DNA of 25,052 nt from a virus. This document shows, one piece after another, positions 7,256 through 25,052 of the stretch; the stretch's first letter is position 1, and every line of letters begins with the position of its first letter. The notes beneath the pieces were generated by a model that worked only from the letters and a program-made list of their open reading frames with translations, was not told the origin of the DNA and searched no databases. The stretch covers positions 1 through 25,052 of the IMG/VR virus record IMGVR_UViG_3300007539_000191. The stretch is one strand, 5' to 3'. Both the position numbers and the translations under genes were made by a program.

Positions 7256-9970
7256 ATGACAAAGTTAAATCCAGCGATATTAAGTAATCCAGGAAACTTC
7301 GCCCAAACGACATGGGGAGTTCCTTCTTGTATAGTTGATCTTGCAGAAAATCTTTTATCTCTAATTCCAGGTGATGTCTTAGGATCTTACTCTCAGGGAT
7401 TGCAAGAAGGTAGAGAGGAAGCTAGGTCTTGGCTTGCTAGTAAGTCTAAAGAGTGGTTTGGTGATAGTGGATTCCTTTCATATAACAGCGCAACAGGAAA
7501 GCTAGAGCTATTTTCTCCAAAGAATACAGGAAGCAGCACAGGATTTTTAAGTGATCTTGGAAAGTATGCAGGTATAGCGGCTGCTGCATGGGATGTAGCA
7601 GAAGATTTGTATGAGCAAGTAGAAGATGTGCTAGACTGTATAGGGGAGTTTAGTGATTATCTAGATGGATTAAACAACGAGTCTCCAAACCCAACTGTTC
7701 AAGCATCTCCTCCTGCTCCAGGAAGCACACCTCCAGTATATCCTAGTGAAGGAGCAAGGTCAGCGTTTGAAAGACAGTTTGATGAGACTATAGCTGACAT
7801 TAATAAGTTTACAGAGAAGATTCAAATGATAGAAAGGGAGCTTCGCCTTAGAAGAGAAGATCCTTCAAGAGAACCCGTCATTAACTTTTCTGGTCCTGGG
7901 GATGTTGAGGAAGCTCCTGACCCAATCTTTAGACTTACATATGGACCTCCTAAATCCAAGAGTGGTCAGTTCTTATTATCAAGAGATGGTATTTATTACA
8001 ATAGCCAGGATAGGGACTATGCAGAAGGGCAAGTTCCTAAGACGGCAGACATAGGAATGATACCATCACCAGAGCGTTGGAAGCTAGACCATCCTGCTAA
8101 CTTAGGAGGTAAAGGACAAGGGTTCTCTCTAAAGCAAGTTAATCGTTATGTAGGAACCTTGTTCGATATTACCAAGGTAGACGATTCTCAGTCCATGCAT
8201 AGATTCTACGATGTAGATAATATGCTTAAATCCTTAATAGGACGAAAGAATAGTGAAGTAGCTAAACTGAACAATGAGAGACAAGCATACATAGCTTCTG
8301 GATATGATTCAGACTCTGCCATAGTAAGCAACATTTACAATCAACTTCAAAGTGCTGTTGATGAGTTTGATTATAAGATAGCCAAGAGAAAGAAGCAAAT
8401 TGAAGTGGCTGTAAAAGCACCCGATTTCTTCGGTATTGATATTCCCTTTGAGCCTGGACATATCCCAATCAACGACTTCACTTTCCTAAGTTCTCTTAAC
8501 CTTCCTGTAGAATTAAGTAAGCAGAGAGAGTTAACTTTTGATCATGGTGAAGTACAGGATATAGTTCTTCCTCTAGTTCCTAAGTATGTAAGAGCAAAGG
8601 ACTCTGAGTGGAGAGTTAGTCTTGATGCGCTAGAAGTTGCTGAGATAGGAACAGGAGATCACATTAAAGTCTTCGATGTCTCTACGACACCTGCTCCTAT
8701 TCTACGAGTTACCGATGGAATAGTAACAGATCATCTAGAAGCTTCATACTCATTCCTCATACCCTCTGTAGAAAAAACAGGTAGATCAACCAAATTCAAT
8801 GTTCTAAACGACAACGCTGATGGAGGCTATCATGACGCACAGCTTGTAGGTAATGATGTATCAAGCGTATTTGATCTAGGAGTTTCTATCCCTAGATTGA
8901 ATGGAGTTATAAGACCACAATATTTTATTAAGGGTTCCACAAGTAGTATAATTTTTGATAAGTTAGGATCCTATGTAAGGCTTCCTGATTCCCCAAGTAT
9001 GCAGAACCTTATGTATAACAAGTATGGATGCTCTTTCGATACTTGGCTATACATGCCCAATTTAGGATCTTCAAATAATACAGCAGAGAAGGATCTCGTC
9101 TCAGTACCTAACTTCTTAGCAACGGATTCCTCTTGGACTGATTATAATTACTACAAGATTCTAATCGGTAATGAGAACATCGGTGGTTCTTACACAGAAA
9201 GTGACATCACTGAGATGACAGATAACTTTGGAACCAACACCGTTAGAGGTATGTTAATGGGCTTCACAAGAGATCCTCAAATAACAGAGAACTCTATAGT
9301 TGGTCGCGGCTCAGACTTTGATATAGGAGACACTTTAGGTATAGACACAAGTGCAACTGCTAGAAAGACTCACTTCTTTATAGCACCAACTCAGTCTGCA
9401 AATGGAACAGATGTAGAGTTTATAAGAAACGAGCCTTGCAATCCAGGCGACGATCCTTATAGAAAAATGTCAGTATCCATATCAGCAACTACAGACAAGG
9501 GGTATGCGTTGAGTGATGCTTCTAACAGCTTTGTTCACTTGAGCGTATCTTTCAATGTATCTGCTGACGAGGTTACTATCTTCCTAAACGGTGAGGAGCT
9601 ACAAAAAGGAAGCTACTCTACTCTGTTCGGAAAAGACCCTAAGATCCCAGCTAATATACCCACATTCATATCTCCTAAGGATTCGACATATCCTAGCTAC
9701 AACTACAACAATGTAGCGGTAGGACCTCAGTTAAACACTTTCTTTACTCCATGGATTATAGGCGGTGGTTATACTGACGGTATAGATGTAGTTATGAATG
9801 GAACTCCAGACGAAGGGTATGGTGGATTCATGGCTACAGGTCATGGGCTCTATTCTGGATTGACAGGCCACATAGGAAGTTTCAAGGTTTATTCAAAACC
9901 TCTAGATATAACAGAGGCTCTCAAAAACTACGAGTCTCACAAAGAATACTACGAGGATATTGATTTATAA
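7256..9970 (+). CDS. baseplate-associated structural protein with C-terminal LamG / concanavalin-like domain, 904 aa
   Basis: This large virion protein lies between the spike and gp25-like genes. Residues 1-140 are mostly helical; a Pro-rich linker follows (about 143-168, with SPPAPGSTPPVYP), then a likely coiled coil (IADINKFTEKIQMIEREL). Around residue 240 is a FLLSRDGIYYNSQ element, then another helical segment (about 330-395). The C-terminal third looks like a LamG/concanavalin-type jelly roll: YVRLPDSPSMQNLM and CSFDTWLYMPNL from about residue 562, HLSVSFNVSADEVTIFLNGE at about 760-780, and GHIGSFKVYSKPLDITEAL near 870-890. This order of strands, with the F-L-N-G-x-x-x turn and the closing I-x-x-x-x-V-Y-x-x-x-L, is typical of LamG folds, which usually bind glycans. 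A host-surface or decoration role on the baseplate is inferred. There is no counterpart here in T4, Mu or P2. Confidence 0.65.
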   Translation: MTKLNPAILSNPGNFAQTTWGVPSCIVDLAENLLSLIPGDVLGSYSQGLQEGREEARSWLASKSKEWFGDSGFLSYNSATGKLELFSPKNTGSSTGFLSDLGKYAGIAAAAWDVAEDLYEQVEDVLDCIGEFSDYLDGLNNESPNPTVQASPPAPGSTPPVYPSEGARSAFERQFDETIADINKFTEKIQMIERELRLRREDPSREPVINFSGPGDVEEAPDPIFRLTYGPPKSKSGQFLLSRDGIYYNSQDRDYAEGQVPKTADIGMIPSPERWKLDHPANLGGKGQGFSLKQVNRYVGTLFDITKVDDSQSMHRFYDVDNMLKSLIGRKNSEVAKLNNERQAYIASGYDSDSAIVSNIYNQLQSAVDEFDYKIAKRKKQIEVAVKAPDFFGIDIPFEPGHIPINDFTFLSSLNLPVELSKQRELTFDHGEVQDIVLPLVPKYVRAKDSEWRVSLDALEVAEIGTGDHIKVFDVSTTPAPILRVTDGIVTDHLEASYSFLIPSVEKTGRSTKFNVLNDNADGGYHDAQLVGNDVSSVFDLGVSIPRLNGVIRPQYFIKGSTSSIIFDKLGSYVRLPDSPSMQNLMYNKYGCSFDTWLYMPNLGSSNNTAEKDLVSVPNFLATDSSWTDYNYYKILIGNENIGGSYTESDITEMTDNFGTNTVRGMLMGFTRDPQITENSIVGRGSDFDIGDTLGIDTSATARKTHFFIAPTQSANGTDVEFIRNEPCNPGDDPYRKMSVSISATTDKGYALSDASNSFVHLSVSFNVSADEVTIFLNGEELQKGSYSTLFGKDPKIPANIPTFISPKDSTYPSYNYNNVAVGPQLNTFFTPWIIGGGYTDGIDVVMNGTPDEGYGGFMATGHGLYSGLTGHIGSFKVYSKPLDITEALKNYESHKEYYEDIDL

Positions 9971-15000: not shown

Positions 15001-16572
15001 AGCGGAAGAACAGCAGGAATATTAAAAAGAGTAACTTTTGATGTCGCTGATCAATTTGAGGGAAGAGTAGGTTTGTTCGCAGCGAACAAAGGTGCCTATG
15101 ATCAAGTAGATAGAAAGCAGGACTTAGTTCCAGGGTACTTTAAGGAGACGAGAGTATTCTCCATGCTAAGTGGAGTTGAGCTTGTAGATAAGGATTATGA
15201 TTTTGATAAAGATGAAGGATACACTTCAAAGAATAATTTCTTGATGTTAAATCTATCAGACGATAACAACAGGCTCGAAGAACCTAACTTCTTACACAAC
15301 AGGTATTCAATTGTAATGAAGGCCGCTGAGAATTTCCCAAGGGTTAGGTATAATGCGGCTAGTAACTTATACGAGACTGTAGCAGATCAATTAGAGGTCC
15401 CAACATACTTCGGAGATAGACCAAATAAATTATTACCAGAGCATGAATTCACTTTACAAGTAAGTTCTCAATTCCTTAGAGAGTTCTCAAACTTAGCAGG
15501 TGGAGGATCTGTAGGAGTATGGATTCACACTAAACCAGAACTTGACGCATGGGGTAACTATGTGTTCTGGAGCTACACGCCTAAAGGAAAGTGGGAAATG
15601 TTCTATGTAGATGATTATCATCAAAAGAAAGGTGCTCCTAAATTAGTTAAGGATAACCTTGCTCACTTTAAGAATATACCTTCTTTCTCTGTAGATCAGT
15701 TAGTGTGCTATGAGAATATTAGCGCACCTAAATCAGTTCTACTTTCTCTAAAAGAAGAGGACTTAGATGTCTTTACTATAAAGTTTGATACTAAGAACAG
15801 AAATATAAAGTGTCCTGTTGAGTATTATCAAGTACATCAACAAGTTCACAGAGAGGATCAGAATTATATCATTGAAGTTTTCCCTGACAAGAGTGGTGAT
15901 TCAAAGAAGTTCTGGCTACACACAGGCATTCATTTGAGAGATGAAGACCTCTACAAGTGTACTTTCCTAAACCATTACTTTGATATTTACGACTACTCTT
16001 TAATAAATGAGAGAACTACAGAGTCCAATAGATTCTTTAGACCAGACGGATCTCTTGTACCTCACGGTACATTATTAGAGATTGATTCTAGCGGTAATGT
16101 TTTTGATGGTGATCAGTTACTAACACTAGCCCATACTCATTACTTAAACTTCTTCACGGAGTATCCTAGACTTCATAGTACATGCAAAGCTGAGTTCGAT
16201 TCACGATGGATTGTTAATGATAAAATCATCGTCAAAATAGGAAAGCGAGATCATGTCGGATACTTCAAACAGGTAGGAGAAGATGAGTTTACTCCATCAT
16301 CATTGAAAATATCTCCTGGAACTTTAGGGTCTAACATTATAAAATCCTCAGAGGGACATAGTGAGATATCCCCAAGAGACATGATGGTTATTCTTAGATT
16401 CTTCAAGTCTATGAGTGATGACGATCAATCTAGAGATCCAGGTCTCACAAGTACAGTTCACGGTAATGACGGAGGAAGTAGACTCAACTACAGAATACAC
16501 CCCGCCAGCTATGAAACTACGACAAGCTACACAACAAAAGGAAGCTATAATACATTGGAGTTTACTAACTGA
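11995..16572 (+). CDS. giant baseplate wedge protein, gp7/gpI-like, 1525 aa
   Basis: This very large protein follows gp6-like, where T4 gp7, P2 gpI and Mu gp48 sit; these proteins lie on the wedge periphery and connect to fibres. Residues about 298-382 match the tail-protein-I core: ECPSEYLPYLADLIGWRFYG, SSWRRQLRAATDLYKKKGSK and KGLIDAFTTVLP (pattern L-x-x-L-A-x-x-[IL]-G-W, W-R-R, K-K-G). Residues 1-297 precede this core, and more than 1100 residues follow it. The C-terminal extension is mostly beta-rich; FTLQVSSQFLREF at about 1151 and GSVGVWIHTKPELDAWGNYV at about 1172 look like strands of a jelly-roll module, with FWLHTGIHLRDEDLYKCTF later. The rest I cannot assign. T4 gp7 has 1032 residues, so this is about half as long again. 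The reading frame is open throughout with codon use like its neighbours, so it is not a fusion by sequencing error as far as I can see. Confidence 0.75.
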   Translation: MYKYFPRTYEQILEKLIPRVYIDADLAISSVPETDLVDLVLESIIELSENSYNNPSLSRNVLPVSAVGSLSGVGDPSGMLPYFVPNGKTRDITPQRFELEILNPLGYSISDYDTSADLRIALRVNVLSKIRLNGYNPGAGVYDLADSTTSAFANDSSGTHIYLANSLGLFYFLNYSCPDVGPFEQPFFFLEEMLAKKFSKGETIRLEDAIRVYFKYVWAVYDSLLSEPDINLTQLVPAPFVQGAGLYTSGTQNLDKLLTTVGIVYNSGALRNQDTYIADTFQNYIDASIKPETKLRSGPFSKFIRAVSYMMGDIDEYNVKLKSIKSVEECPSEYLPYLADLIGWRFYGENVSSWRRQLRAATDLYKKKGSKKGLIDAFTTVLPDVPIDLDSSISEMYESYIPNLMYYLIITESPMFSGVDSWTYENALHFNQGEFSAEYLDLNIRISIDHVLRRAALKFPEAFTVKGYKFDLSDPDFIFNYRGRDFPIPPWEEEKFYVDCDLHEELVRFLRDEIVCLGVPDYYGDAFEQYILDNTIRGYQPIKKYENTFLFFTDSIERPPNYDRIVKYSSTDLLKYLTLWSGKSSHFDFTLSGSSFEESTILNNVDYSKEDFFAALGVVKDFTPAKSIPRVHFDLTAVDLVKDADYLYPKVKYSLVDFPTSGVMAGQAYSGLDMRDDSLGLLGSHRMPGFTEDLNRTRVSHQDLPVFKRTQADYWNVSGSIKHDCYSFDADISSGPLTVSGPYTAAALRSSVRRRDFSQKLSSGENYLRNHFAGPNFYLSMNDGDVYQSLDTSNGVNGHPYDYQPLGFNNRLLEFTDTDPFKLKGSVWDKCENIYSPNVKSGVETSSTYEIRGPLQWDTSSIDATREHFFVDKSNTSEIRAILFKLIDKKIELEAEKVFKDAPSLFSEDKYSHDVIQSIKADLWTHKTFTEEDYFEFAFNTWKPSCRHMYYTVHKLYDFYMRSFDYHTLADKELDTLTNGGASIISHAYGPILFNAGLQLDSSGRTAGILKRVTFDVADQFEGRVGLFAANKGAYDQVDRKQDLVPGYFKETRVFSMLSGVELVDKDYDFDKDEGYTSKNNFLMLNLSDDNNRLEEPNFLHNRYSIVMKAAENFPRVRYNAASNLYETVADQLEVPTYFGDRPNKLLPEHEFTLQVSSQFLREFSNLAGGGSVGVWIHTKPELDAWGNYVFWSYTPKGKWEMFYVDDYHQKKGAPKLVKDNLAHFKNIPSFSVDQLVCYENISAPKSVLLSLKEEDLDVFTIKFDTKNRNIKCPVEYYQVHQQVHREDQNYIIEVFPDKSGDSKKFWLHTGIHLRDEDLYKCTFLNHYFDIYDYSLINERTTESNRFFRPDGSLVPHGTLLEIDSSGNVFDGDQLLTLAHTHYLNFFTEYPRLHSTCKAEFDSRWIVNDKIIVKIGKRDHVGYFKQVGEDEFTPSSLKISPGTLGSNIIKSSEGHSEISPRDMMVILRFFKSMSDDDQSRDPGLTSTVHGNDGGSRLNYRIHPASYETTTSYTTKGSYNTLEFTN

Positions 16573-18953
16573 TGAGAGGAGAAGTTGAAGTCTATAGAGT
16601 AACTAAGCAAGGTGATTGCCTAGTTCATAAATCCTCGAACCTTATCATGGATGGGTTTGGTGAAGCTCTTGTTGATATATTAACCACTCCATCTGGAATA
16701 GCAGCTAATGGTATTTACGGTCAGGGAGACAACTCATATGAACGCCTGGATACTTCAAACTGGACTATAGGCTCCATAGCTTTTGGCAAGGGGACTCTAG
16801 GCTTTACAAAGAACTCACACGATATAAAGAATACTAACTTGTTAGGATTCTCTGAGAACTTGGTGGCTAACTTCTCTGGAAGTTGGGGCTTAGGAAATTG
16901 GAGAGATGACAATCAATTCAAAGGAGTAGTAACTTCTTCACCAGAGGATGCATCTGATCTTAGTAGTGCGGTGGTTCATGTAGAGGCTTCTTCTGGATAC
17001 AAGTCTGAGATAGCTAATAGGCTGATGCAGTTCGTAAATTCTAAGCCTTTGCACCCCTTGTATGATTCAGTCACCTTCTCTGTTGATATGAAGTTTGATT
17101 TTGAGAACCCTTCTCAATCAATGTCCAGCGGAGACAGGTTTGCCGCGATATCCATATCACAAACAAGTTCATTCGCTTCTCCTTATGAGCATCATAGCGA
17201 GATATTTAATATTATTAAATGGGATGCCAGCGGCAATGCTTCCCTTTTGTCTTCTGATGAGGACCCTCTAGAAGAATTTTCTCATGGATATTTACGAGAT
17301 CTAGGTAATGGGTGGTACAGAAATACTGTGGTTCTAGAGCCAGCCTGTAAAAACATACTCAGTTCAGTTGAAGGTTTCGGTCCTTATTGGAAAGCAAATT
17401 TGATAACATCTTCATATGGAGATTTTGGTCATCCTAGGTATCACGACAAGCAAAGTGAAAAATTTGAAATAACAGTTAATGCTGGAGATAATTTTTATGT
17501 TGAATATAATCCTGGATCAGACTTTTCAACCATATATGAAGGTTATGGTATAGGTACTGATATTGAATTTTCATTTTACTTTAAAAAGGGTGAAGGCTCT
17601 AATCCTCAAGTAAGATGTAGGCTTGTAGATTTAGGTGGCCCTACGACTATATCAGAATGTCGGATTACTAATGTAGACCCTGATAATTTAACTGCAACTC
17701 AAACGGTGGATACTGGCACAAACAGTTTTTCCGTCTCATCTTACAATGAGGAATGGGCTAAAGTTACTGTAACCCTAACAGATACTTTAGGTACGGCTGA
17801 CAGACTAGATGTTTGGATATATCCAAAAACAAATAACGGTGATCCTACAGACTATATCATAGCAAGTGCTCCTCGTTTATGTTTAAAGAGCACTAGCTCT
17901 TACATAAAACCTGATCCTTATGACATCACCTGCTCCATATACCCAACGCTTCCTGTTCAAGCTAAGACTTTATCAGGAGTTGATAGGTTAGGATTGTCGT
18001 TAGAGCCTTCGTCACTATCAGGAGCTATCTATATTTCAAGACCTCAGTTGTCTTATGGAACAGCCCCTGCTTCCTATAACCCCACTTATAGTTATGACAA
18101 TCAGTATCCTAATGACCCTATCATGGGATATAAGATACCCCTTGGATCTAATTTCTACGGAGTTTCTGGTATAGGAAGACTGTACTATGATTCCTCTGCT
18201 TATCAACCAGTAAGCAATCCACCAAGAATACCAAATCCTAAGGATAAGAAATTAGAGTACGGAGTAACTCTTCCAATACAATCTTACAAGGGTTACGAAT
18301 TTGATATAGATAAAAATCTTAATTATACAGCGTTCCCTACTTACGAACTCAGTTTAAATAATGTTTTAAAATCTGATGCCATTCAGGGGTTTGGACTTAG
18401 AGGAGATGCTAGACACTTTGGGGCTTATTGTCCTTCAAGTGGAGCAACTATTTCAGTGCTGTCAGCTTTAGACAATGCAGCTTATCTAAATCCTGTGTCT
18501 TCGTTCGAGTATTCCGCAGGGTTCAATCATCCTGACAGAAGAACCATGGATAGGAACGGCCATATAAATGTTTATTATCCAACCAGAGGAGAAACTCAGG
18601 ATGCATTTGGAAGACTAATTGTATCAGCCAACTCAGACTTTTCTTCCACAGGAGAGCTTTCTTGCATATGCATCATACCTTCAGGGGATGCTGCTGTAGC
18701 AAACATGTACGGAGGTATTTTTGAAGCTGGTCTATACTCTGTAGACTTCTACAACCTGTCTAAAAATAAAAAAGCAGGAAGTCTTCCATTTAGTAAGAAT
18801 GTTGATAAATTACCTGTGAAAGATATGGATTATAGGCTGATAGCTAAAAAGACATTCAATGATAATATCGTGGTATCTAGAGATAACGGGTCTGATGCTG
18901 GAGTGGCTCATCACGACAATATAAAAGTAGTTTGGAAGTTGAAGTTCTTATGA
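16572..18953 (+). CDS. fibre-adaptor-type protein with nested beta-sandwich modules, 793 aa
   Basis: The N-terminus (GEVEVYRVTKQGDCLVH, IMDGFGEALVDIL) and the C-terminus (GGIFEAGLYSVDFYN near 715-729, then YRLIAKKTFND and IKVVWKLKFL) match the start and end of the two paralogues that follow. They use the collar/fibre-adaptor pattern in which a G-x-x-x-x-x-K-V start is closed by E-x-G-L-[FY], A-Y/A-K and W-x-[IL]-x-F. Between them are carbohydrate-binding-type modules: one opens at NLLGFSENLVANFSGSW (residue 89 on), reaches NGWYRNTVVLEP near 246-257, and closes only at YISRPQLSYGTAPASYNPT (487-505). A second, opening NILSSVEGFGPYW (261) and closing APRLCLKSTSSYIKPDPY (about 433-450), lies inside it. 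Expected role: peripheral baseplate or fibre protein that contacts host glycans. Its ATG overlaps the gp7-like stop by one base (TGATG). Confidence 0.65.
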   Translation: MRGEVEVYRVTKQGDCLVHKSSNLIMDGFGEALVDILTTPSGIAANGIYGQGDNSYERLDTSNWTIGSIAFGKGTLGFTKNSHDIKNTNLLGFSENLVANFSGSWGLGNWRDDNQFKGVVTSSPEDASDLSSAVVHVEASSGYKSEIANRLMQFVNSKPLHPLYDSVTFSVDMKFDFENPSQSMSSGDRFAAISISQTSSFASPYEHHSEIFNIIKWDASGNASLLSSDEDPLEEFSHGYLRDLGNGWYRNTVVLEPACKNILSSVEGFGPYWKANLITSSYGDFGHPRYHDKQSEKFEITVNAGDNFYVEYNPGSDFSTIYEGYGIGTDIEFSFYFKKGEGSNPQVRCRLVDLGGPTTISECRITNVDPDNLTATQTVDTGTNSFSVSSYNEEWAKVTVTLTDTLGTADRLDVWIYPKTNNGDPTDYIIASAPRLCLKSTSSYIKPDPYDITCSIYPTLPVQAKTLSGVDRLGLSLEPSSLSGAIYISRPQLSYGTAPASYNPTYSYDNQYPNDPIMGYKIPLGSNFYGVSGIGRLYYDSSAYQPVSNPPRIPNPKDKKLEYGVTLPIQSYKGYEFDIDKNLNYTAFPTYELSLNNVLKSDAIQGFGLRGDARHFGAYCPSSGATISVLSALDNAAYLNPVSSFEYSAGFNHPDRRTMDRNGHINVYYPTRGETQDAFGRLIVSANSDFSSTGELSCICIIPSGDAAVANMYGGIFEAGLYSVDFYNLSKNKKAGSLPFSKNVDKLPVKDMDYRLIAKKTFNDNIVVSRDNGSDAGVAHHDNIKVVWKLKFL
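17346..17921 (+). other. inner beta-sandwich module inserted within another module
   Basis: Residues about 259-450 of the 16572-18953 product have their own module opening (KNILSSVEGFGPYWKANL), centre (DIEFSFYFKKGEG, WAKVTVTLTD) and closing (APRLCLKSTSSYIKP), while the surrounding module resumes at ITCSIYPTLPVQA. Hand count gives about 27% GC over 17461-17580, against 48% at 17101-17160 in the outer module; the AT-rich part covers only some of the insert. Confidence 0.5.
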
Positions 18954-21496
18954 TTGGTGAAGTAACAATAACGAAGGTTTACAAGGATGGCACAAAGGAG
19001 GTTGTCCTTAACAAAGACCGTAATATGATTACGGACGGTATGGGTATATCTTTAGTAAACCTATTTACTGTAAACCCTGCCAATCCTAGATACACTTTGG
19101 AAAACTTTCAGTTCGGGTATTACCAAGTAGGAACTTCTAGTGTTGTAGAGAAAGGCCCAGTAAGAGGAGAGTTTAATAAGTGGGAAGCCACTATGGAGGA
19201 TTCCACAGGTAACAATTTCTATGAGCTTCAATCCCCTCTTGCCGCTTCTGCATACGGAGAAGACACTACCTTAAAGGTAACGAATAAAAAAATACTAACA
19301 GTCACTAATCCTTTTGAGGATGCGATAGATCTGAATTATATTTACTCAGAAGCTGATATGGTTCAGTTTGAGTACGACCCAGTAGTTAAGCTAGTCGATG
19401 GAGCAGTTCATGTTAAAATCTATCTAGATGAGAACTCTTCTAACAATCAAGAAATTTCTGAGCTAGGTCTTTTCATTAGAAACCCTGAGGTATTTGAGTC
19501 TGGTGATCGCCCTTGCCTAGCTGCTTATAAATCCATATTCACCCCAATAAGTAAGTCCAATGAGTTTTCTTTAGACATTGATTGGGTTATACACTTCAGC
19601 GATGAAACACTCGCTTACGGATACTTAGCAGATCCTAAGTATGTTTATTTCGCACCCTCCACCAAGTTTGATCGCCCAGGGTCACAGGCGTTTGTAAAGT
19701 ATATTGAGTTCGATGAGATATACGATATTACGGTGGAAACTCCCATACCTTTAGAGCAAGACTCATATTTATATTATGATGTTTCAGGGGATGCTGTAAA
19801 TGGAGTTCATTATGAAATAACATCAGGACAATCTCCTATATTATTTGAAAAAGGATCTTCTAGTAAAAAGATAAAGGTAAAGACAGTAAGGCCAGCAGGA
19901 ATTTTATATCATGCTCCAAAGAAGCTTAATATAAAAATGAATCGTTTTGAGGGTCCAAGAGATATTCCCAACCCTACAAAAGTGTCCTTATCCAATGAGT
20001 TTATAGTTCATCTAAGGGCCGCATCTATTTATAAACCACCTGTGGTAAATCTCACGGTTCCTAGTGATACAGTAGATACAGATGCTAGTTTTGATGTTAG
20101 TGCAGAAATAACTTATAACAACGGTTCTTTACTCCAACAAACTGAAGACATACAGGTATATCTACATCTATCTTCAAACGGAACTAGACAACTATCTACA
20201 TCTGCCACTATATTAACAATATCAGCAGGGGACAGTTACGGAACATTAACCATAGATACTACAGGAACTGGTGATGTCTCCGTATCCACATACAATACTC
20301 TATCAGCAGGGTCTTATTACAACAATATGGCCCACTCTAATGATTTCACATTCATTAGACAGCTATCATCCACGGACATAGACCCTCAGCTTTTATTTGA
20401 TAACAAGGAAGCTTTTAGACCTTTAGGAGGTAGTGGGTTCTACACTGAGAGATTTAGTCCTTGGGCCACATCTTATGTATGGTTTGCTGGAGACAGTACC
20501 TTAAAAGTTCATAGTAACAACGATGTGTGGACAGCCTTCCCACCACTTGATGTATTCACTCAAGCAAGCTCGTTAGATAACTTTGCTCCTGATGGATTAC
20601 AACCAGCCCAGTTACATTACACTCCATGCTCTCTTTATGCTTGGCACAGGGGAACCGCTGGGGGTGCTTTAGAGGTTTACGGGGCAGCAAGTAAAATCAG
20701 GAAAGACTATACTAGCGATAATAAAAATGGAAGAAACCTATCCCCTGATGGAGACAGCCAAAAGCAACAGTTTGAGTGGACTACTGATGGCTCTTCTATA
20801 TCCTTGTCAGTATATGTGAAGAACATTGATCCTGCGGGAGTAGTTCATAAAGGGACTACAGTAAAACCCGCTAACGCATTTACTATCAATATATTCTCAA
20901 GAGGTATGCCAGGGGTTGATAGAAATATTTCCACAGATATAACCGCTGTAGGAAAGGCTGCCACTTTTTATTGGGAACCTGCTGGAGGTTTAGTTTTAAG
21001 CTCTGTAACCGCTGATGGGTTATGGACGGATAATAGCAATACCAGTGATGCAGGTGTTTTCTCTGGAGTAGGTTACGATACTGCCGCTGGACTTCCTTAC
21101 GATGATCCTTGGGCGGGAGATGGCTGGTATAGAGCTTATATAACAGCTTTAGTGGATAAGCAGTTTACAAACGCTGGGACCTATGCTCCTTTAAGTACAG
21201 ATGGATCAGGTTCTGTATCACAATGGTTCATACATTATAATGTTGATAGTGGGGGTAATTTATTCAGACTTCCTGGAGAGAAGGATGGGTTGTTTACTAG
21301 AGGCGTAGATATACCAGTGGACATGTCAGGATGCTATCTATCTTGGGGCCAGTGGGAATACGGTATAACCCAAGAAGCAGCGCCCTACACTAATTATCCA
21401 AGGCCGTATCAACACAATCTAGATTCGGTATTTACTCCTCTAGGGAAGTGCGTAATAAGAAGCGGCTACGAGAAAGTGATCTTTAGCACCACTTGA
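18950..21496 (+). CDS. fibre-adaptor-type protein with Calx-beta-like and carbohydrate-binding-type modules, 848 aa
   Basis: The start is taken at the ATG at 18950: it gives the ATGA overlap with the preceding gene and aligns MIGEVTITKVYKDG with the start of its paralogue; a TTG at 18932 would add six residues. Residues 1 to about 217 are the shared adaptor domain: DRNMITDGMGISLVNLF, YELQSPLAASAYGED, ISELGLFIRNPEVF (169-182), then AYKSIFTPISKSNEFSLDID and WVIHF. Residues about 257-314 look Calx-beta-like (YYDVSGDAVNGVHYEITSG, ILFEKGSSSKKIKVKTV). A second Ig- or Calx-beta-like unit spans about 363-447 (VNLTVPSDTVDTDASFDVSA onward). The C-terminal half (about 477-848) is a carbohydrate-binding-type beta sandwich: SISLSVYVKN, DGWYRAYITALV and YLSWGQWEYGITQEAAPYT. 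A receptor-binding accessory fibre protein is inferred. Confidence 0.65.
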   Translation: MIGEVTITKVYKDGTKEVVLNKDRNMITDGMGISLVNLFTVNPANPRYTLENFQFGYYQVGTSSVVEKGPVRGEFNKWEATMEDSTGNNFYELQSPLAASAYGEDTTLKVTNKKILTVTNPFEDAIDLNYIYSEADMVQFEYDPVVKLVDGAVHVKIYLDENSSNNQEISELGLFIRNPEVFESGDRPCLAAYKSIFTPISKSNEFSLDIDWVIHFSDETLAYGYLADPKYVYFAPSTKFDRPGSQAFVKYIEFDEIYDITVETPIPLEQDSYLYYDVSGDAVNGVHYEITSGQSPILFEKGSSSKKIKVKTVRPAGILYHAPKKLNIKMNRFEGPRDIPNPTKVSLSNEFIVHLRAASIYKPPVVNLTVPSDTVDTDASFDVSAEITYNNGSLLQQTEDIQVYLHLSSNGTRQLSTSATILTISAGDSYGTLTIDTTGTGDVSVSTYNTLSAGSYYNNMAHSNDFTFIRQLSSTDIDPQLLFDNKEAFRPLGGSGFYTERFSPWATSYVWFAGDSTLKVHSNNDVWTAFPPLDVFTQASSLDNFAPDGLQPAQLHYTPCSLYAWHRGTAGGALEVYGAASKIRKDYTSDNKNGRNLSPDGDSQKQQFEWTTDGSSISLSVYVKNIDPAGVVHKGTTVKPANAFTINIFSRGMPGVDRNISTDITAVGKAATFYWEPAGGLVLSSVTADGLWTDNSNTSDAGVFSGVGYDTAAGLPYDDPWAGDGWYRAYITALVDKQFTNAGTYAPLSTDGSGSVSQWFIHYNVDSGGNLFRLPGEKDGLFTRGVDIPVDMSGCYLSWGQWEYGITQEAAPYTNYPRPYQHNLDSVFTPLGKCVIRSGYEKVIFSTT

Positions 21497-22110: not shown

Positions 22111-25052
22111 ATGGCTGGATTCGATATAAATGATTTGTATACGGTTAGTGCAGGAGTCCTTCTAAGTGACTACTGGAACCCTTTCGTAACTAAGCATGAT
22201 ACAAGCTCCTTTTATAACTGGGAGCAGGACAACCTTCCTCTGTACGATTTAGAGGAGCGTACTGATTATCTGTGGGAGAAGCTTGGATGGCCTACTTCAT
22301 CTCTTCCTGGCATGGTCCTTGCAGTATCATCTTCAATCCCCACTCACTTAGATGTAAGTTGCAACTTCTTCCTAGATGTTTCATCAGCCATTAAAGCTCT
22401 ACCTGAAGTTCTGCACATGCCAGTGCTTATTGAGGTATGTGCCTCAGGAAACCTAGGTGATTTATGCCTTGATAATGTGAAGTGTACTCAACACGGGGCA
22501 TTGGAGATTGTAAATAGAACAGGTATTAGAATTATAGGAGCGGATAATGACGCTACTACTCCTTCTGAATTTTCTTCTTTAGTATACGCATTAAATCCAG
22601 GTAGTGAGTACGGTATTCCTCTTGACATTAGTTCTATGGATATGCAGAATATCCTGAACGATACTTCTTGTTTATTAGCATCATCTAATAATGTAGAACT
22701 AATAGGCGCGGCTGATACTGGAGGCACTGCAAGAGGCTTTGCTCAGATAAGACAGGGTTTTTATTCAAACAACTCATTCCTAACAAATTTCCTAGTTGAG
22801 TCTGTAATGGACAAACAACTAACAGCCGCTAACACAGTTAGATTATTCCCAATAGGTAATAGACACACTGCTAATGGAGTTACTGATTATACGACTACTC
22901 AACTTGATGTGTCTTGTATAAATAAGCACGATGGGTCTATAGTTAGGAGATCTAAGACTTCTTCTAATGATAATACTTGTTCACACGGATTTACAACCGC
23001 AAATTTCCTAAGAAGACTTAGCATCAAGAACTGTGATGGTCCTATTTATATTCGTGGATTTATCGTAGATGCTGCTGAAGACCAAACATCAAGCCCTTAT
23101 ACTTCATACAGCCATTCATATGAAGAGGCGGCAGCTATTGATAACAGCAGCCGAGTAACATTAGAAAACTTTGGAGTTATGAGAGGTAGAGGAGTTGGTC
23201 TTCTAGTTAATAACTCTAATGTTGATCTTAGACGAGGGTTTGCTTCAAGTAGAAACTACATAGCAAACAGTACTACCAGAGGAACTTCCTACGGTCTTAA
23301 GGCTTATAACTCTACCCTTAATGTTGTAACAGATACTTATGTGTCAGGATCTGAATACTTCTTCAACATTCAAGGTAACGATGTAGGTGCCTATCTTCAC
23401 AACTCAGTCCTTACTGGAGGTGATGGTTTTGGTGAAACTTTAGTAGGCCATCCTTCTCCAACAGTTATTAACTTCTGTGTAAATGGAACAGGGATAGAGG
23501 CCATAAACTCTGAAATAAGTGTTAAGGGATTGATTACGGCGTATAGTAATAAAAAAGGAATTAAAGCCCTTAACTCAACATTAAAAATTGATGGAATACA
23601 TTGTGAAGCTAATCAAGATGAAGGTCTTCATTTAATTAACTCTCATTTAGTATATTCAGTTGAACAATCTAGACAAGTATCTTTAAATAGATTTCAAACT
23701 ATAGCTGGAGTAGGAGAATACACGCACACTCCCTGGACATATCAGATATCTTTTGCATCTAATGGTCAGCACATTAAAATGGAGTCTTCTACATTTAAGT
23801 TAGATGATGTTGATACGAACTATGTAGACACTGCTCCTCTTATGTATTTCGCTAATCATATAGGTACGGATTCCAGCAGTGCAGAAGGAACGAACCTTAC
23901 GCAAGCTGTGGTTCTTACAAACTCATACGCACAGTTCTGCCATGCTAGAATGTTTGCTCCTCAGGCTAATAATACAGCAGACTTTGTACCTACTGTTTAT
24001 TCTCTAAGGACAGTGAAAGGGTGTTTAGTACACGCAGACAAAGGATCCACTGTTGATTTCCATGGAACATCCTACGGAGCAACGCAGCTTGTTGGCCCTG
24101 ACAATGTAAATGATTTGTCTCAGAGAAGATGCTTGGGGGTGTATGCTAACAACAACTCTCATGTAAACTTCATGGGTCCAACCTTCATAGGACAATTCTC
24201 TGTAGACGCTCTAGCAGATAACAATTCCTCAGTAAAGTTCATGCCTCATCAAGATCATGAAGGTGCTTTAGGTATTGAAAAGTGGAGTCTATCTAGTGGA
24301 GCTAACCATACTTCTGTAGAGCTACATTCTACTAGAGCCTGCTTAGTTGCTGATAAAGGATCTCTTATTAGCATGAGAGATCTTGGAGACTATCACTCAA
24401 CTTGGGATAGAGACACTATTACGGCTTCTGTTTCTGCTGCTGATTATGGAACAGGTGACGAAGGGCAAGCCTACTTAGTATCAGGTTATACTTCCAGTGG
24501 CTGCATGATAATGCTACCTAACCCTGATGATACTGACGCACAACTAAGTAGCACCTTCTCATTAACAGCTAACTTCTCAAACAAGACGAACCCTGAGGCA
24601 AACCCAAATGATCATAGAGCCTTTGCAACTCACAGAAGTATAGGTCTTTATGATGGTCACTTTGCTAGTTTCTTAGGTGTAGAGTATGACACCATTGATG
24701 AGATTGAGTTTCAGGAGAATCTTTCTACAGGTGGTTTCTGTGTGAGAGCGTTGAATGGAAGTAGAGTTGATACTTTGAACACTCACTTTATCCCTGGCCC
24801 AGTGAACGCTGATAAGGAATACTATGACCCATCTCATGATGATAACAACGCTGGTTGCTATAACTTAAGAATATGGAACATTGGAGATGGTTCTTACCTC
24901 AACTCAGGTTATTGTTCTGTAAGCGGTGTTTATCCATCACAAGCTCCTTATTGGGGTCCTCGCGCTGTATGGCAAAAGCCAGGAACTACATGGTATACTG
25001 GTCAAGGAACCGCTAATACTTCAGCAACAGGAAGGACTGGATTTACTGGTCA
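22111..25052 (+). CDS. large beta-helix tail spike/fibre protein, partial (at least 980 aa)
   Basis: The frame is open from the ATG at 22111 to the right edge; I translated it fully and found no stop, so only the N-terminal 980 residues are here. An N-terminal region (NPFVTKHDTSSFYNWEQDNL, LYDLEERTDYLWEKLGWP) probably attaches to the baseplate. From about residue 361 it carries repeated rungs of a right-handed parallel beta-helix, the fold of many phage tailspikes. One rung family has G-[LI]-x-[AL]-x-N-S-x-[LIV] (VGLLVNNSNVDL, YGLKAYNSTLNV, TGIEAINSEISV, KGIKALNSTLKI, EGLHLINSHLVY; residues 363-513). A later family has C-[LV]-x-A-x-x-[GN]-S-x-[VI] (GCLVHADKGSTVDF, CLGVYANNNSHVNF, ACLVADKGSLISM, FCVRALNGSRVDTL; residues about 637-888). 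No catalytic residues or chaperone domain can be judged, because the end is missing. It is probably the receptor-contacting spike or fibre. Confidence 0.8.
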   Translation, partial: MAGFDINDLYTVSAGVLLSDYWNPFVTKHDTSSFYNWEQDNLPLYDLEERTDYLWEKLGWPTSSLPGMVLAVSSSIPTHLDVSCNFFLDVSSAIKALPEVLHMPVLIEVCASGNLGDLCLDNVKCTQHGALEIVNRTGIRIIGADNDATTPSEFSSLVYALNPGSEYGIPLDISSMDMQNILNDTSCLLASSNNVELIGAADTGGTARGFAQIRQGFYSNNSFLTNFLVESVMDKQLTAANTVRLFPIGNRHTANGVTDYTTTQLDVSCINKHDGSIVRRSKTSSNDNTCSHGFTTANFLRRLSIKNCDGPIYIRGFIVDAAEDQTSSPYTSYSHSYEEAAAIDNSSRVTLENFGVMRGRGVGLLVNNSNVDLRRGFASSRNYIANSTTRGTSYGLKAYNSTLNVVTDTYVSGSEYFFNIQGNDVGAYLHNSVLTGGDGFGETLVGHPSPTVINFCVNGTGIEAINSEISVKGLITAYSNKKGIKALNSTLKIDGIHCEANQDEGLHLINSHLVYSVEQSRQVSLNRFQTIAGVGEYTHTPWTYQISFASNGQHIKMESSTFKLDDVDTNYVDTAPLMYFANHIGTDSSSAEGTNLTQAVVLTNSYAQFCHARMFAPQANNTADFVPTVYSLRTVKGCLVHADKGSTVDFHGTSYGATQLVGPDNVNDLSQRRCLGVYANNNSHVNFMGPTFIGQFSVDALADNNSSVKFMPHQDHEGALGIEKWSLSSGANHTSVELHSTRACLVADKGSLISMRDLGDYHSTWDRDTITASVSAADYGTGDEGQAYLVSGYTSSGCMIMLPNPDDTDAQLSSTFSLTANFSNKTNPEANPNDHRAFATHRSIGLYDGHFASFLGVEYDTIDEIEFQENLSTGGFCVRALNGSRVDTLNTHFIPGPVNADKEYYDPSHDDNNAGCYNLRIWNIGDGSYLNSGYCSVSGVYPSQAPYWGPRAVWQKPGTTWYTGQGTANTSATGRTGFTG

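Follow-up and report, generated by a model that had tools for sequence, protein, structure and literature searches.

The evolved Dit proteins of siphophages (PMC7291167, PMC10688798, PMC9692632) can be regarded, by analogy, as the closest precedent for the phage protein described here. They have a conserved baseplate core of the belt/galectin fold with carbohydrate-binding modules in its loops, occur in forms with and without the insert, contain one or two modules per insert, and belong to non-contractile-tailed phages of Gram-positive hosts; their inserted modules have been shown to matter for adsorption, which they promote (PMC7291167, PMC10688798). Among contractile-tailed phages, the wedge protein Gp119 of Bacillus phage Vp4 and its counterpart Gp177 of Deep-Blue differ in the presence of CBM folds, and only the CBM-bearing protein binds cells (PMC11406892). 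Wedge proteins have also been described in E217 (gp45) and Pa193 (gp46) (PMC10329688, PMC11042391), and the head spike fibre of RcGTA binds capsular polysaccharide (PMC10218006). Nested insertions of the type A1-B1-C-B2-A2 are known as a topology class whose named examples are cellular enzymes (PMC13114784). In the literature searched, of which coverage was incomplete, no phage protein was found to be described with one such module lying within another.

The window, i.e., the whole stretch of DNA analysed, is the complete record IMGVR_UViG_3300007539_000191 of 25,052 bases and represents a fragment of an uncultivated contractile-tailed phage. The gene of interest is a single open frame at 16572-18953 (+) encoding 793 amino acids (aa). 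It lies in a baseplate block with the order gp25-like, gp6/J-like, 1525-aa protein, 793-aa gene, ~848-aa adaptor, 194-aa adaptor, and a long fibre-like protein, and the gene order around the 793-aa protein is repeated at its homologues L002, L004, and L112 (Table 1). The ~630-aa extension of the adjoining adaptor bears a similar G-W-Y-R ... closing-strand signature, and the counterpart of this adaptor in L004 (4645-5301), L027, and L029 is an adaptor-only protein of 218-224 aa. The long protein starting at 22111 (22111-25050) has a fibre-like look and runs off the end of the window; in L004, L112, and L002, it has 1169-1253 aa and always comes after the 194-aa adaptor. Upstream, at 7256-9970, a 904-aa protein shows a weak Laminin_G_3/concanavalin-type lectin match at residues 737-790 (E 0.03) and is possibly another binding module of the same block.

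Table 1. Layers of the 793-aa protein and its neighbouring genes, with positions in the window.
Feature	Position	Strand	Evidence
Upstream baseplate protein, 1525 aa, Tail_P2_I segment	11995..16572	+	Tail_P2_I of Pfam found above the family's cut-off at E 2e-4; L002, L004, and L112 have the same neighbour
Core, N-terminal part, residues 1-89	16572..16838	+	Residues 1-97 align with positions 1-87 of a profile built from 19 core-only homologues, iE 1e-19
Outer module, first part, residues 90-255, ending at the N-G-W-Y-R strand	16839..17336	+	Profile positions 23-153 match residues 121-262, iE 1e-19; missing in core-only homologues
Inner module, residues 256-453, between the G-W-Y-R and I-Y-P strands of the outer module	17337..17930	+	Gap 255-454 in 7/7 one-module homologues; AF2 beta-sandwich model with CBM-like matches
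Outer module, closing part, residues 454-522, I-Y-P and Y-I-S-R-P-Q-L strands	17931..18137	+	Profile positions 159-199 match residues 453-503, iE 3e-4
Core, C-terminal part, residues 523-793, and stop codon	18138..18953	+	Core profile positions 89-367 match residues 523-793, iE 1e-34
Adjoining paralogous adaptor, ~848 aa: adaptor domain and ~630-aa C-terminal extension	18950..21496	+	In the 854-aa frame, residues 8-222 are hit by adaptor profile A2
Single-domain paralogous adaptor, 194 aa	21525..22109	+	N-terminal ~57 residues common with core; phrog_5417 at 6e-4

The prediction that the 793-aa protein is composed of three nested layers, a module within a module within a core, is strongly supported by sequence comparison. 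A core of ~370 aa (residues ~1-90 and ~523-793) is interrupted by an outer beta-sandwich module (~90-255 and ~454-522), which is itself interrupted by a second, inner module at residues ~256-453. The profile of the outer module, built from seven one-module homologues with the window sequence left out, matches the protein in two consecutive pieces flanking residues 263-452. When residues 256-452 were deleted in silico, one outer domain of 83.0 bits was obtained, compared with the split scores of 65.2 and 14.6 bits, and a control deletion of a same-length block further upstream lowered the outer-profile score. The core-only profile similarly gives two pieces around residues 98-522. The arrangement therefore follows the order A1-B1-C-B2-A2, in which C interrupts B, B interrupts A, and homologues without C and without B exist. 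In a full-length AF2 model (29 sequences, mean pLDDT 58), the outer strands fall at residues 119-255 and 450-496 and the inner strands at 296-431; a fold search with this model, at the same mean pLDDT of 58, gave no match below E 1e-3. Searches of Pfam and PDB gave no match beyond chance for the core, outer, or inner profiles, and no Pfam family, CBM families included, matched the inner, outer, or sister modules. The matryoshka architecture put forward in the original prediction is thus borne out by the split profile matches and the natural intermediates, the modules not lying in linear order, and the limits proposed there for the sandwiches (89-505 for the outer and 259-450 for the inner) proved nearly exact against profile pieces at 121-262 and 453-503.

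The natural intermediates were gathered by repeated searches of viral contigs and fall into size classes of 338-427 aa (core only), 579-627 aa (core with outer module), and 793 aa (nested). The nested form is found in the window and in contigs L002 and L003, which come from separate metagenomes and encode proteins of 793 aa each, ~56-58% identical to that of the window; the search for further carriers of the inner module found just these two. The 579-aa protein of L004 aligns end to end save for one missing stretch; in a separate search, the query was split at 1-254 and 455-793, the two halves being linked by ~13 residues. As the same stretch is missing in six more proteins (L027, L029, L013, L014, L038, and L045), the segment at 259-450 is not a constant part of the family. 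The outer module is also missing in 19 aligned homologues.

A maximum-likelihood tree was built from 55 near-complete sequences with the core columns only, the insert regions being left out and the root placed without an outgroup. These sequences comprise 40 core-only proteins, nine with one insert at the same site, two nested, two whose insert lies at a second site, and two with several modules. The window and L002 were grouped with support of 100/99 and joined by L004, L027, and L029 (five rows, 100/99), followed by the other four one-module proteins (nine rows, 99/97), and the core-only proteins are placed elsewhere. On this unrooted tree, the simplest history would be that of a core that gained the outer module and later the inner one, since loss needs more steps.

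The core accepts modules at three places, namely, core position ~87-109, which is used by most proteins including that of the window, 174-184 (L032 and L033), and 252-256 (L051 and L055). In L032 and L033, the insert at core position ~174 is a sandwich-type module (residues ~190-405) that matches no recognised family. In L051 (1146-aa ORF) and L055 (1145-aa ORF), the first core site contains ~520 residues and the third site one more module, and L069 (>880 aa) has ~520 residues at the first site as well; by reading, the ~520-residue inserts of all three appear to be two modules in tandem. Given three insertion sites and tandem modules, the family has several ways of gaining modules, nesting among them. 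At the contig end of L056 (4400-5140), the stretch 'CTGTSNTHIAPDGTLTADTIF' is present twice with the second copy right at the end, which suggests that a module was duplicated recently and that the assembly may have broken off for this reason.

The inner module diverges faster than the rest of the protein. Between the window and L002, identity is 34% in the inner module, 60-69% in the outer module, and 59-77% in the core. The inner module of the window has a GC content of 36% and a GC3 of 22%, and the hand-counted values of the original prediction were right, with 26.7% at 17461-17580, the minimum for a 120-bp window anywhere in the coding block, and 48.3% at 17101-17160. The origin of the insert, however, cannot be read from its low GC: AT-richness is confined to this genome, and GC gives no evidence of recent import because the inner segment of L002 is not AT-rich, having 39.7% GC like the rest of the L002 gene.

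Modelled alone from two sequences, the inner segment gave an AF2 beta-sandwich of about nine antiparallel strands with a mean pLDDT of 52, reaching 68-79 in the central strands only, and with a low-confidence prediction for the first ~65 residues. The best Foldseek matches of this model (mean pLDDT 52) were baseplate proteins of Pa193 (9b45, 2.6e-4) and E217 (8env chain K, 6e-4), followed by mannan-binding CBM27, CBM6, CBM4, and the sugar-binding F-box protein Fbs1; at this mean pLDDT of 52, E was about 1e-3 to 1e-2 against CBM27, CBM6, CBM4, CBM16, and lectins, and phage tail-type proteins were matched among predicted viral proteins. These matches are supportive and not proof because the mean confidence of the model is low. 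Sequence gives independent support: in L107, the module that occupies the same site of the core hits a PHROGs tail-protein family at 8e-17, with marginal sequence matches to E217 gp45 (E 0.004), Pa193 gp46 (E 0.013), and the RcGTA head spike fibre (E 0.011); it had no match at 1e-5 in isolated phages. Sequence homology between the inner and outer modules is suggestive only: their comparison gave a probability of 1.4% (P 0.037), and in a shuffle test, the window copy reached best ranks of 2-3 of about 2000 and the L002 copy did worse. The alignments fall in register at the W-motif, the I-Y-P strand, and the closing strand.

The layered reading has to be weighed against three other accounts of the inner segment. 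It might be no independent domain but a hypervariable loop that has grown unusually long within the outer sandwich, which would suit its AT-rich, fast-evolving sequence, the low confidence of its first ~65 residues, and the weak profile similarity to other modules. We consider this improbable, as ~198 residues with about nine antiparallel strands give a beta-sandwich model of their own with significant fold matches and possess a W-motif, an I-Y-P strand, and a closing strand in register with those of the outer module. The window being a metagenome contig, an assembly chimera, a misread tandem, or a self-removing (intein-like) element might be suspected, but the same arrangement occurs in two contigs of separate metagenomes, the frame is uninterrupted, and the outer-profile pieces are consecutive and not repeated; the junctions showed no terminal repeats and no target-site duplication, and an artefact or intein of this kind seems scarcely credible. 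An ancestral inner module lost in the one-module relatives is also very unlikely. With carriers in two lineages only, the direction of change depends on the tree, in which the nested pair lies within the one-module clade, 7/7 other members and every core-only protein are without the inner module, and one gain stands against at least two losses.

The relation of the core to the neighbouring 194-aa paralogue had been described as a match at both ends. At the N-terminus, ~57 residues match firmly (hhalign 96.5%, E 9e-10); at the C-terminus, the alignment runs flush to the end of both proteins, but its support is weak (probability ~20%, P ~0.001). Pairwise BLAST between the 793-aa protein and the paralogue gave nothing useful, so that profiles were needed, and phrog_5417 is matched by the paralogue at 6e-4 and not by the 793-aa protein. 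The suggestion of an adaptor split by about 600 residues has to be revised, since the gap is actually ~425-430 residues (98-522) and residues 523-793 are part of the core family of this protein itself, whose length is ~370 aa, not ~190 aa. Matching the paralogue firmly at the N-terminus and weakly at the C-terminus, the core is related to it but greatly enlarged in the middle, and is not a short adaptor split by 600 residues.

Regarding function, we consider it likely that the protein is a nested-doll baseplate adaptor whose modules most likely bind host-surface polysaccharide. The conserved ~370-aa core would dock in the baseplate, a location indicated by the order of the neighbouring genes. 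A beta-sandwich module was inserted into one core loop, as homologues with and without it show, and the lineage leading to this phage later gained a second sandwich module in a loop of the first, as is shown by the homologues and the tree. For both modules, polysaccharide binding on the host surface would be the most likely role, and the inner module, presumably facing the host at the outer tip, could add specificity or reach as a second or longer-reaching binding site that is free to diverge quickly. Glycan binding and a receptor-binding role are suggested by the resemblance in fold, the position of the gene, and how quickly the inner module diverges. It is distinctly less probable that the layers are real and the modules structural, serving as spacers or contacts with baseplate or fibre proteins and not as sugar binders. 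E217 gp45, of which region 320-388 resembles the L107 module, is indeed a structural wedge subunit holding the fibre (PMC10329688), but presence or absence between close relatives and an inner identity of 34% vs 59-77% suit host-facing parts better, many true sugar binders are among the fold neighbours, and a distant relative of the modules, the RcGTA head spike fibre, binds capsule (PMC10218006).

The polysaccharide-binding adaptor thus favoured would work like an evolved Dit without being a member of that group. It shares with evolved Dits a conserved baseplate core with a loop module of carbohydrate-binding type that is absent in classical relatives, as presence/absence and fold resemblance indicate, and differs in its unrelated ~370-aa core within a contractile-tail baseplate block, the Dit core of belt plus galectin being encoded between tape measure and Tal: the core profile has no PDB match, and the gene follows gp25-like, gp6-like, and Tail_P2_I-type genes in a contractile-tail wedge block. 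Two domains are described per Dit insert, with no mention, in the available portions of the reports, of one interrupting the other, whereas here the second lies within the first. The Vp4/Deep-Blue pair resembles the present family as a contractile-tail baseplate protein with or without CBM folds between related phages, but it has another host group and nesting is not described there (PMC11406892). E217 gp45 and Pa193 gp46 share the best fold match to the inner module, the marginal sequence match to L107, and a wedge position beside a fibre gene (PMC10329688, PMC11042391), the likeness being limited to the module, as the core profile finds nothing in PDB. The nested insertions of PMC13114784 are of exactly the same topology class, with cellular enzymes as the named examples there and, here, a phage adsorption-type protein with a ladder of natural intermediates.

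Isolated phages gave no matches for the whole 793-aa protein, the core, the 194-aa paralogue, or the 1525-aa neighbour. The sole relative among bacterial genome records is the L112 contig in an Altibacter MAG, which carries the whole baseplate block and may be a provirus or a mis-binned phage, or may hint at a flavobacterial host; no host is claimed because this contig may be a mis-binned phage.

Binding-module insertion in baseplate proteins and nested domains in enzymes are both known, and here the two occur in one phage protein. The family may use a recursive plug-in scheme, in which at least three core loop sites take sandwich modules, modules stand in tandem at one site, and the loop of an inserted module is itself a site, a generalization that we hold tentatively, as somewhat short of an even chance. 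If this applies elsewhere too, the loops of modules in phage host-recognition proteins would generally serve as sites at which further modules dock. The surviving intermediates (no module, one module, nested, tandem, and other sites) make the order of events directly readable, and natural proteins can be used to test how recognition domains are added while the baseplate stays intact. A plausible role is also offered for a widespread, unannotated family absent from isolated-phage collections.
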